Source of the DNA: Pseudomonas putida
GTDB taxonomy: Bacteria > Pseudomonadota > Gammaproteobacteria > Pseudomonadales > Pseudomonadaceae
Length of the DNA: 64,000 nucleotides
NCBI RefSeq assembly: GCF_028682395.1
Contig: NZ_JANHLC010000001.1
Coordinates: 434,001 to 498,000, forward strand
Reading direction: 5' to 3'
The translations under genes were made by a program, and so were the position numbers. Numbering within the stretch: position 1 is the stretch's first letter; every line of letters starts with the position of its first letter. The notes beneath the pieces were generated by a model, which worked only from the letters and a program-made list of their open reading frames with translations, made no database searches and was not told where the DNA came from. This document shows, piece after piece, positions 34,421-37,202 of this stretch.

Positions 34421-35404
34421 ATGCGTGCCATTCTGTTCAGCAGCCAGACCTATGATCGCGACAGTTTCCTGGCTGCCCAACAACCCGCCGGACTCGAACT
34501 ACATTTCCAACCCGCACGCCTGAGCCTGGATACGGTTGCCCTGGCCGAGCGCCATGAGGTGGTCTGCCCCTTTATCAACGACGACCTGAGCGCCCCAGTG
34601 CTTGAACAGCTGGCAGCCGGTGGAACGCAATTGATCGCACTGCGCTCCGCCGGCTACAACCATGTCGACCTGCTGGCCGCCAAGCGCCTGGGCCTTGAGG
34701 TCGTGCGTGTCCCGGCCTATTCCCCCCACGCCGTGGCCGAGCATGCCGTCGCCCTGATCCTCGCCCTCAACCGTCGTCTGCACCGCGCTTACAACCGCAC
34801 CCGCGAAGGCGATTTCAGCCTCCACGGGCTCACTGGTTTCGACCTGGTAGGTAAGACCGTCGGGGTGATTGGTACCGGCCAGATTGGCGCGACGTTCGCG
34901 CGGATCATGGCCGGCTTCGGTTGCGAACTCCTGGCCTACGACCCCTTCCCCAATCCGGAAGTCGTGGCCCTGGGCGCACGCTACCTGAGCCTGCGCGAGG
35001 TGCTGGAGCAGTCACGCATCATCAGCCTGCACTGCCCGTTGACCGCTGAAAGCAAACACCTGATCAACCGTGACTCCTTGGCCCACTTGCAGCCGGGCGC
35101 CATGCTGATCAACACCGGTCGTGGCGGCCTGGTCGACACACCGGCCCTGATCGACGCGCTCAAGGAAGGTCAGTTGGGCTATCTGGGGCTGGATGTCTAC
35201 GAGGAGGAGGCGCAGCTGTTTTTCGAGGACCGTTCAGATCTCCCCCTACAGGATGATGTGCTGGCGCGCCTGCTGACATTTCCCAACGTTATCGTCACTG
35301 CTCACCAGGCCTTTCTGACCCATGAAGCGCTCGGGGCCATCGCCGAGACGACCCTGGGCAACATTGCCGACTGGGCCGCCGGCAAGGTGCGCAATCGGGT
35401 CTAA
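34421..35404 (+). CDS. ldhA: D-lactate dehydrogenase, 2-hydroxyacid dehydrogenase family
   Basis: 327 residues. NAD-dependent reductase of pyruvate to D-lactate. NAD-binding fold with VGKTVGVIGTGQIGATFAR and LLAYDPFPNPE; catalytic Arg in LINTGRGGLVDT, Glu in GLDVYEEEA, and His in PNVIVTAHQAFLT. The ending with YDPFPNPE and a long active-site loop (FFEDRSDLPLQDD) is the fermentative LdhA type. AAAGGAAAG stands before the ATG. It follows gacS directly, as recalled for P. aeruginosa. Its TAA overlaps the stop of the convergent gene. Confidence 0.93.
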   Translation: MRAILFSSQTYDRDSFLAAQQPAGLELHFQPARLSLDTVALAERHEVVCPFINDDLSAPVLEQLAAGGTQLIALRSAGYNHVDLLAAKRLGLEVVRVPAYSPHAVAEHAVALILALNRRLHRAYNRTREGDFSLHGLTGFDLVGKTVGVIGTGQIGATFARIMAGFGCELLAYDPFPNPEVVALGARYLSLREVLEQSRIISLHCPLTAESKHLINRDSLAHLQPGAMLINTGRGGLVDTPALIDALKEGQLGYLGLDVYEEEAQLFFEDRSDLPLQDDVLARLLTFPNVIVTAHQAFLTHEALGAIAETTLGNIADWAAGKVRNRV

Positions 35405-36621
35405 CTGCCCGCCAACGTGCTGGCGTATTTCCCCAAAGCGATAAGCCCCATCCAGGAGAATCCCAACACACGCTGCGTCGTGGTATGGCCCTTGCGCAGC
35501 AGAAACCAGACGAACACCGGCGGTAGTAAAAAGATCGCCAGCCCCAGCCATAGGGGGACCGAGCGCTTGGCACCCTGGGCATCAGTTGAATCGACAGTTT
35601 GTGCGGGAGCCGTCATTGCGGGAAGAGGGCTATGGTCTGGCGGTGTCGGTAATGGAATCTGGACCAAGCGGGCCGGGGCCGGTGCAGCGACAGCAACTTC
35701 AGCCGGGTCCGCCGACACCCCGGTGTCAGTGACGGGCGCAGAGGGAGCACTGACAGCCGGCACCGGTAAAGGGATCTGTACGACGCGGCCCTGGAGCGGT
35801 GCAACGACAGCAGTATCAGGCGTATCGGCCGGCTTTGCGGCGGCAGTGACCTCATCCGTGGAGACGCGGGCGGGCGGCAACGGCGTCTGTACGGCACTGG
35901 CCTGGAGCGGTGCAACAGTGGCGACCTTAGGAAGGTCGGCCAGCGCTGCGGCCGCAATCACATCCCCCATGGAAAAGCTGACTGACGGCGCCGAGTTCGA
36001 CGCTGTGCTGGTAGGTATCGTACCTGCGCCGGCGAATCCAGGCTTGTCGGCCGCCTGCGCCGCATTGGCGGCTACCTGGGCTAGAGAAAAATTGACTGCC
36101 GATAGAATTTCCGGCGTCAATCCGCTCCCGGCAAGTCCTGCAACCGCAAAATCCGGATTGCCATTGGCTTGCATGGCGCTCTCGACCCCTGCCGAGGCCA
36201 AGGTCAGCAGGTGGGCCGGGACCTCTTCTCCAACTTCGTAAGTCCGCTCGCTAGACTTGCCATCAGCCAGCCTGATGCTCTCGAGTGCAGCGTCCGTCAT
36301 CGCCTGTACAGAGGCTGGAACATTATCTCCAGGGCCATAGGTCTGTGTGGAAGAGGTGTGCGACTCGAAACTGGGAGGCGTTGTCGAGGCTTGCGCAGAA
36401 GCCAACGCCTCATTCAAAGCATTACGCACTTGGGGATCGCTCAGCCCATGCATCGAGAGCAAGGACTCATCCATCAGCATCACGCCCCCCAGCTCCGGCT
36501 TGGCAGCTGCAGCGGCCGCCGGCTTGGCATTCGCCCCGGGCATCGCCGCACCACAATGAATACACGCCGACGCCACCGAACTGATGGACCGCTTGCATCC
36601 TGCACACTGAATCAACGCCAT
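35401..36621 (-). CDS. Zinc-ribbon membrane protein with VQxPLP repeats, function unknown
   Basis: 406 residues from the ATG at 36621, which follows GAGGA by 7 bases. Four parts can be seen: an N-terminal zinc ribbon (C6, C9, C20, C23: IQCAGC and ACIHC), a low-complexity Ala stretch, two similar about 55-residue segments holding GPGDNVPAS / EVGEEVPAH, then a Pro/Ala-rich region with three repeats of about 37-39 residues (VAPLQASAVQTPLP, VAPLQGRVVQIPLP, APAPARLVQIPLP), and finally two hydrophobic helices (WLGLAIFLLPPVFVWFLL and FSWMGLIALGKYAS). The ribbon and long tail should be cytoplasmic with a C-terminal anchor. I do not recognise the family. Confidence 0.82.
   Translation of the reverse strand: MALIQCAGCKRSISSVASACIHCGAAMPGANAKPAAAAAAKPELGGVMLMDESLLSMHGLSDPQVRNALNEALASAQASTTPPSFESHTSSTQTYGPGDNVPASVQAMTDAALESIRLADGKSSERTYEVGEEVPAHLLTLASAGVESAMQANGNPDFAVAGLAGSGLTPEILSAVNFSLAQVAANAAQAADKPGFAGAGTIPTSTASNSAPSVSFSMGDVIAAAALADLPKVATVAPLQASAVQTPLPPARVSTDEVTAAAKPADTPDTAVVAPLQGRVVQIPLPVPAVSAPSAPVTDTGVSADPAEVAVAAPAPARLVQIPLPTPPDHSPLPAMTAPAQTVDSTDAQGAKRSVPLWLGLAIFLLPPVFVWFLLRKGHTTTQRVLGFSWMGLIALGKYASTLAGS
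35640..35935 (-). repeat. Three tandem coding repeats of 111-117 bases
   Basis: The DNA string CCTGGAGCGGTGCAAC recurs at 35790 and 35900 and in decayed form at about 35673. Units are therefore 111 and 117 bases (37 and 39 codons). The two inner copies are nearly identical at DNA level, which suggests recent duplication within the zinc-ribbon gene. Confidence 0.7.
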
Positions 36622-36767
36622 GTTCATTCCTCAATAACATCAGTGTGCGAGTGTGCCAGCTTGCCGAGGGGCGCGTCACGGACCGGCTGCACCAGATCGA
36701 AGGTCACAACGCCCTGCCATCTTCCCGGGATCTGCGTGCTAGCATACCGAGCCTATTTGGAGGACCC

Positions 36768-37202
36768 ATGGTCGAACACGATTTCCGCTACAGCCTGATG
36801 AGCCCGCAACATACCCTGATCGAATGCCGCAACCTGGTGCCCGGTCGTTACCAGGTCACGGGCAACGGTGGCTCGATCCGTATTGGCGATGTACTGCTGG
36901 TGACCCTCAAGGGCAGCCGTGACCTGTCCATGCGCCTGACCGTCGAGACCGTTCGCCACCTGATCAATCCCCGCGGCCAATGGGTCGCCGTGGCCAGTGG
37001 CCCGGTGTTTGGCGAGCTGGCGATTCACCAGTGGGAAGTCAATTGCGACAGCTGCGCCAAGACCCTGAGCTTCGAGTTCGCGGTCGACAGCAAGCTCGGC
37101 AACAAGGCCCAAAAGCCTGCTGCCACTGCGCGTATCGCCGAGCTGGGCTGGGCCAGCCAGGGCGAAAAACACCTGTGCCCAGCGTGCCAGGAGGCAAAAT
37201 AA
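36768..37202 (+). CDS. Small protein with a C-terminal CxxC pair, function unknown
   Basis: 144 residues, cytoplasmic. Beta-rich N-terminal two thirds (YQVTGNGGSIRIGDVLLVTLKG), followed by two CxxC knuckles, C93-x2-C96 (VNCDSCAKTL) and C137-x2-C140 (LCPACQEAK), which could bind one zinc. GGAGG at 36759-36763 gives a strong start. Its stop shares one base with the start of the META lipoprotein gene, so the two are coupled. I recall a similar pair after ldhA in P. aeruginosa (around PA0925-PA0926) without a known role. Confidence 0.85.
   Translation: MVEHDFRYSLMSPQHTLIECRNLVPGRYQVTGNGGSIRIGDVLLVTLKGSRDLSMRLTVETVRHLINPRGQWVAVASGPVFGELAIHQWEVNCDSCAKTLSFEFAVDSKLGNKAQKPAATARIAELGWASQGEKHLCPACQEAK

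Follow-up and report, generated by a model that had tools for sequence, protein, structure and literature searches.

Between ldhA and a small gene encoding a CxxC protein, a 64,000-nucleotide stretch of a Pseudomonas putida genome (hereafter the window; contig NZ_JANHLC010000001.1, positions 434,001 to 498,000) carries a gene for a predicted protein with an N-terminal zinc ribbon, a C-terminal membrane hairpin and, connecting the two, a long, repeat-bearing linker. A sequence-only reading of this DNA regarded the gene as an apparent insertion, knew no described family with this plan and considered a scaffold function possible. This raises the question of whether the gene is a novelty of one lineage or a member of a wider family, and of what such a protein might do at the membrane.

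Gene and predicted protein

A single open frame spans window positions 35401-36627 on the minus strand (Table 1), and the gene that the sequence-only reading had placed at 35401-36621 is real. An in-frame ATG at 36627 would yield 408 amino acids, and residue numbering here follows that frame. The ATG at 36621 is the likelier start, since a GAGGA motif lies 6 nt upstream of it, whereas the same motif directly abuts the ATG at 36627. Among 85 extracted relatives the N-terminus reads MALI in 72 and MxMAL in 13, the longer frame of the window being of the MxMAL type. A promoter and terminator scan returned one of each against 0.4 and 1.0 expected, which is not above chance.

Table 1 Features of the gene in window coordinates (residues in the 408-residue numbering).
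Feature	Position	Strand	Basis
Whole gene	35401..36621	minus	406 aa from the preferred ATG; open frame; ends conserved in relatives
GAGGA, likely ribosome-binding site	36628..36632	minus	6 nt before ATG 36621; read directly from the sequence
N-terminal four-Cys zinc ribbon, residues 3-27	36547..36621	minus	Cys and HCG invariant in alignments; sub-threshold DZR match; strands with block pLDDT 86-90
Linker first half, residues 52-195	36043..36474	minus	Six predicted helices; block pLDDT 35 to 81
GEEVPA-type segment copy 1, residues 92-123	36259..36354	minus	Self-match with copy 2
GEEVPA-type segment copy 2, residues 125-156	36160..36255	minus	Self-match with copy 1
VQxPLP unit 1, residues 215-251	35875..35985	minus	DNA and protein self-comparison
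VQxPLP unit 2, residues 252-288	35764..35874	minus	DNA and protein self-comparison
VQxPLP unit 3, residues 291-327	35647..35757	minus	DNA and protein self-comparison
First membrane helix of hairpin, residues 357-377	35497..35559	minus	Hydropathy; helix with block pLDDT 86-88 from residue 361; conserved in relatives
Second hairpin helix, residues 383-407	35407..35481	minus	AlphaFold model; GFxW conserved in relatives; weak hydropathy

The anatomy described earlier, a ribbon followed by a long stalk and a C-terminal membrane hairpin, holds, with the four ribbon cysteines located at residues 8, 11, 22 and 25. The linker comprises ~320 residues, with 21% Ala and 11% Pro across residues 34-348. An AlphaFold model of the protein, built with 26 sequences (mean pLDDT 59.5, pTM 0.29), is confident at both ends, contains six helices of low to moderate confidence at residues 54-193 and is of low confidence from residue 196 to about 350. 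The model of a short family member displays the same ends. Hence, the long flexible stalk proposed in the sequence-only reading agrees with part of the model, whereas the first half of the linker has six predicted helices. The first of the two proposed membrane spans is clear, while the second is predicted as a helix by the model yet is only weakly hydrophobic and contains a Lys. A fold search with the whole window model against the PDB returned nothing at E <= 0.001, as did a search of a viral library with the short member's model, and no solved structure was matched by sequence at E <= 10.

A long-linker member of a ribbon-hairpin family

When the window protein served as the sole query, scanning named genomes confirmed nothing. 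In a search of 57 genomes, nine matched besides the window's own, eight of them at both protein ends, whereas in G012 it was other proteins that matched, at their hairpin. A nine-member profile gave some match in 106 of 398 genus genomes and a full-length match in 55, the window's own included; the genomes, one per species, were sampled from a larger group and passed through a permissive first screen, and some absences may therefore be missed matches. The remaining matching genomes mostly contained one end or short stretches, and those fetched proved to encode other proteins with the N-terminal ribbon or the hairpin in common. Scanning the named genomes with a family alignment yielded 78 loci. 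Of these, 67 are from Pseudomonas and carry the gene, while 11 belong to other organisms; in the 10 of the latter whose proteins were read, only the ribbon is in common. Of the 85 relatives, which represent 73 distinct proteins, 67 come from the named loci and 18 from unnamed ones, with 11 of these 18 identical to a named one. The extraction pattern missed two further members, L172 and L173, that were found in a later alignment.

Agreement in ribbon, hairpin and locus, together with the sizes of the gap between ldhA and the CxxC gene, identifies the gene as a long-linker form of a small chromosomal Pseudomonas ribbon-hairpin family, with ~250 extra linker residues. The relatives measure 126-178 residues compared to 408 in the window, and the linker is about 320 residues long in the window lineage compared to about 70 in a typical relative, four to five times as long as usual. 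The earlier remark that no described family with this plan is known stands in that no Pfam or NCBIfam model exceeds its cut-off for the window protein; it does not stand for the plan itself, which is present in 54 other genomes of the 398. Nor did any curated Pfam or NCBIfam model recognise the hairpin (the window protein served as query for NCBIfam and PADLOC, and hairpin peptides of relatives were run against Pfam), and nothing on a ribbon-hairpin family was found among open-licence papers.

Besides the ribbon and the hairpin, the members have in common a linker motif SFGxLP...VPxA and a stretch rich in Arg. The window protein retains the ribbon motif MALI-x-C-x2-C...CIHCGA, including all four Cys and IHCGA, and the hairpin motif FxxPxxFVWFLLRxGHxxxQRxxGFxW, preserving 20 of the 26 positions whose conservation among relatives is 97% or higher. 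It is thus similar to other ldhA-linked proteins of this kind (e.g. L020, P. koreensis NZ_JAOEJU010000025.1) in locus, ribbon and hairpin, but differs from them in length and in the linker, where both SFGxLP...VPxA, a feature of family membership, and the Arg-rich stretch are missing. As the ends and the locus agree with the family, we treat the missing motif as a loss or replacement of the linker, and lower the membership claim for the middle part. The scores lend no support to common descent of this part with the family linker: the best window scores for SFGxLP...VPxA (-7.2 ungapped and 0.3 gapped) fall under the shuffle medians (-2.2 and 0.8). The same scores led us to reject the idea that the GEEVPA-type segments are diverged copies of this motif.

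The N-terminal CxxC...CxxC four-Cys pattern also occurs in Zn_ribbon_3 (PF13248) and DZR (PF12773), with scores below the curated cut-offs (DZR 11.9 of 27.3 for the window protein, Zn_ribbon_3 18.1 of 27 for L020). TcaA-like proteins of Gram-positive bacteria likewise join an N-terminal ribbon to a membrane segment, but cross the membrane only once and have a large outer portion, unlike the protein described here.

For 400 pairs of short relatives, dN/dS amounts to 0.11 in the ribbon and 0.12 in the hairpin, compared to 0.20 in the linker, and the two ends are thus held by selection. Comparison of the window hairpin to those of relatives gives pN 0.30 and pS 0.56, and six of the 26 conserved positions are altered; by these measures the window hairpin has drifted.

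Occupied and empty sites between ldhA and the CxxC gene

In the window, as in all 67 named Pseudomonas loci, the gene is flanked by a convergent ldhA on one side and a divergent CxxC gene on the other, and all 54 other full-length carriers among the 398 genomes have it at the same chromosomal place. Both neighbours were listed in 109 of the 398 genomes, including all 55 gene-bearing ones. In these, the gap between ldhA and the CxxC gene measures 89-256 bp in the 54 genomes where the gene is missing and 534-638 bp in 54 of those carrying it, with the window standing apart at 1366 bp. The description of the gene as an insertion in an otherwise conserved order is therefore half right, with the site occupied in 55 and empty in 54 of the 109 paired loci. 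The CxxC gene itself (window 36768-37202, plus strand) is matched at E <= 1e-10 in 394 of the 398 genomes, and its frame has no Pfam or NCBIfam match at E <= 1, making it nearly universal in the genus yet without a family model.

A midpoint-rooted tree of three neighbouring proteins from 108 loci places the window on a long branch together with four gene-less loci (support 1.0). The window thereby lies outside the gene-bearing clades, some loci within those clades lack the gene, and the nearest locus by plain identity (L151, 86.7%) is also gene-less. The presence of gene-less loci inside gene-bearing clades, and of the window among gene-less loci, indicates that the gene has probably been lost or exchanged more than once. 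The proteins of L173 (G236) and L008 (G011) are identical over 129 residues from the end of the ribbon to the last residue, despite the genes flanking L173 grouping with other species than those of L008, which suggests gene exchange between species at this locus. For the window copy, inheritance and acquisition both stand as readings.

A full-length gene in just 55 of the 398 genomes, missing in some species inside gene-bearing clades, can be considered dispensable. This would fit a long linker that is a neutral or decaying expansion under weak constraint, in a protein that does little in its host. The third-position GC of the linker (0.62-0.63, compared to 0.76 in ldhA) and the altered hairpin positions agree with such decay, whereas a frame that stays open across 1.2 kb, with the four Cys and most conserved hairpin positions kept, argues against it. 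We consider this explanation unlikely.

Two sets of internal duplications in the linker

Both sets of linker repeats reported in the sequence-only reading were recovered. The two GEEVPA-type segments align over 32 residues as the best self-match, with a score of 60 that is attained by none of 500 shuffles; a second, weaker self-match between residues 65-81 and 172-188 is attained by 8 of 500 and is tentative. The Pro/Ala-rich VQxPLP repeats form an array of three 37-residue units at a spacing of 111 and 117 bp, with a linker self-match score of 116 compared to a maximum of 58 in 200 shuffles. By contrast, the statement that two of the repeats are nearly identical in DNA is contradicted: compared pairwise over 111 nt, the units have 74, 63 and 72 bases in common (67, 57 and 65%), with 76-81% identity confined to a 42-nt core, and 19, 15 and 15 of 37 residues at the protein level. 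The array is also absent from the Tandem Repeats Finder list. Such divergence lends no support to the repeats being young, nor to the strain-variable copy number deduced from this; the repeats are real but well diverged, and hence give no sign of recent slippage.

An origin of the linker from elsewhere in the genome was rejected, as the linker DNA has no second copy in its own genome at E <= 0.01 and the linker protein, used as query, has no match in the 114 other genomes searched. In whole-protein searches some alignments extend from the C-terminal side into the end of the linker, reaching at most residue 283 (G219, 39% identity); the 268 genomes searched with the window protein were already part of the 398-genome search and do not form an independent sample. 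A relative from Pseudomonas sp. KK4 (L083, 178 residues) contains three likely copies of SFGxLP...VPxA with scores of 32.7, 13.1 and 12.2, the latter two above 95% of 500 shuffles and below the very highest. Linker growth by duplication thus probably has a precedent in another species.

It is conceivable that residues 52-195 are not a spacer but a functional helical domain new to this lineage, with specificity residing there and not in the ribbon. The six predicted helices with block pLDDT values of up to 81 are in keeping with this, as are the internal duplication beyond the reach of any shuffle and the weaker one that only 8 of 500 attained. However, the model has a pTM of 0.29 and no PDB fold match at the threshold used, the linker has no relative in the 114 genomes, and Ala-rich sequence is prone to helix calls. 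On this evidence a new domain seems rather unlikely.

A proposed membrane-tethered ribbon and its orientation

On balance, and with appreciable reserve, we favour the explanation that the gene, a long-form member of the family, encodes a ribbon that a lineage-specific spacer tethers to the inner membrane. The hairpin would hold the protein in the inner membrane, while the ribbon would face the cytoplasm and bind a partner, either protein or nucleic acid. The linker, which in the window lineage contains two sets of internal duplications that have since diverged, would set the reach and flexibility of the ribbon. This agrees with the conservation of ribbon and hairpin columns next to a linker that varies in length and sequence, and with a model in which the ends are confident and the middle less so. 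Against it, residues 52-195 may form a domain instead of a spacer, and the charges around the hairpin are not readily reconciled with a cytoplasmic ribbon.

The ribbon is presumed to be cytoplasmic because no signal sequence is seen and reduced cysteines are expected in that compartment; zinc binding is likewise presumed. Residues K354 and R355 precede the first helix, while R378, K379, H381 and R386 are located in the inter-helix loop. By the positive-inside rule, these loop charges favour a cytoplasmic loop, and hence a periplasmic ribbon or a hairpin that crosses the membrane incompletely. Either the hairpin may not fully cross, with P369-P370 located within its first helix, or both ends of the protein may lie outside. 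A scaffold function, as proposed in the sequence-only reading, is possible, these results neither supporting nor excluding it.

The hairpin in other proteins and in phages

The same hairpin was recognised by eye in other Pseudomonas proteins, where it is preceded by a ribbon and followed by a C-terminal tRNA_anti-like domain (PF12869), stands before a tRNA_anti-like domain in the absence of a ribbon, or stands before another domain type. In L139 (391-831) it forms the C-terminal end, following a putative DUF4236-like domain. The Pseudomonas protein L128 matches PF12869 (E 3.3e-15) and the PHROGs family labelled 'superinfection exclusion Sie-like' (1.9e-23), and viral L201 matches the same label (1.4e-21); these are the two OB-type proteins that were scanned. 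Proteins of the type of L128 and of its relative in Klebsiella phage MK416007 display the ribbon-hairpin order of the window protein, but have a short linker and an added C-terminal domain, whereas the window protein lacks this tRNA_anti-like domain (phrog_8545/PF12869 type). A further family of unknown function, phrog_37565, matches the window hairpin at E 1.3e-5 and that of L020 at 3.3e-9; the rest of its 291-position profile is not shared with the window protein. The Klebsiella phage gene (MK416007.1 32189-32857; L224 5001-5669) is annotated 'hydrogenase maduration factor', a name that is probably wrong given the product is 42% identical to the ribbon-hairpin-OB protein L128.

A class-wide scan of 229 genomes detected the hairpin clearly in two, the window's and one other, and weakly in seven more; in the window's genome it was found once. 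Relationships to the look-alikes Pmp3/YqaE or superinfection-immunity hairpins were rejected: the hairpin peptides of three relatives gave no Pfam support up to E = 10, in a scan where HMMER filters may hide weak matches. In IMG/VR the hairpin is present in 21 loci, and a simple pattern locates an OB-type motif behind it in 15 of them. The genes surrounding it were scanned in six viral loci. In L194 (2246-3771), a 268-residue hairpin gene directly follows a CI repressor gene on the same strand, its C-terminal domain belonging to phrog_29597 (unknown function). A CI repressor gene lies about 500 bp from the hairpin gene of L211, on the other strand, and that of L201 follows a Q-like antiterminator with an integrase nearby. 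The other three have no lysogeny gene among the neighbours scanned, which include a homing-endonuclease-type gene (L195), a ParA-like gene and a weak tail-type match (L212), and only families of unknown function (L202). In MK416007, the gene for the ribbon-hairpin-OB relative stands alone, and the genes around it, which include tail genes, run in the opposite direction.

The window protein might belong, as a chromosomal representative, to a broader set of membrane proteins for phage exclusion: the hairpin would anchor prophage proteins that shut out other phages, and the window's gene would serve its host likewise, with ribbon and long linker replacing the OB-type domain. The viral occurrences of the hairpin with OB-type motifs behind it, the Sie-like label of L128 and L201, the lysogeny-type neighbours in L194, L211 and L201, and the lone phage gene running against its neighbours would all fit. 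However, the OB-type domain is missing from the window protein, the gene lies at a chromosomal site whose flanks are the same in all 67 named loci, and three of the six viral loci have no lysogeny gene among the neighbours scanned. PADLOC returned no family at E <= 1 for the window protein, and P0001 found no match at E <= 0.001 in the phage and plasmid collections, on which basis a phage or plasmid cargo gene was rejected. In addition, the PHROG label is an annotation for which no literature testing it was found, and a passage of the superinfection exclusion review PMC11436027 has no bearing on the window protein. We regard membership in such a set as quite improbable. With the label-bearing domain absent, no PADLOC match and a chromosomal site, the phage link, which comes from the hairpin alone, is to be taken as a lead, not a finding.

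A broader proposal would be that the 45-50-residue hairpin is an undescribed membrane module with interchangeable heads (ribbon, OB-type, DUF4236-like and others), distributed over Pseudomonas chromosomes and temperate phages and acting at the inner membrane against incoming phage DNA. Taken as a whole this is a long shot; if true, the window gene would be a chromosomal, long-armed member of an anti-phage arsenal.

Returning to the favoured explanation of a tethered ribbon, only the long repeat-bearing middle is unusual in the window gene, the overall plan being already present in Pseudomonas. Taken alone, the gene is a minor curiosity, one lineage's putative membrane-tethered ribbon protein with a linker several times longer than usual. 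Of broader relevance is the hairpin: in the scans of proteins and peptides no curated model matched it, it is seen by eye with several partner domains, and it adjoins lysogeny genes in some phage contigs. A named hairpin family would connect several proteins now called 'zinc ribbon domain' or 'hypothetical'.
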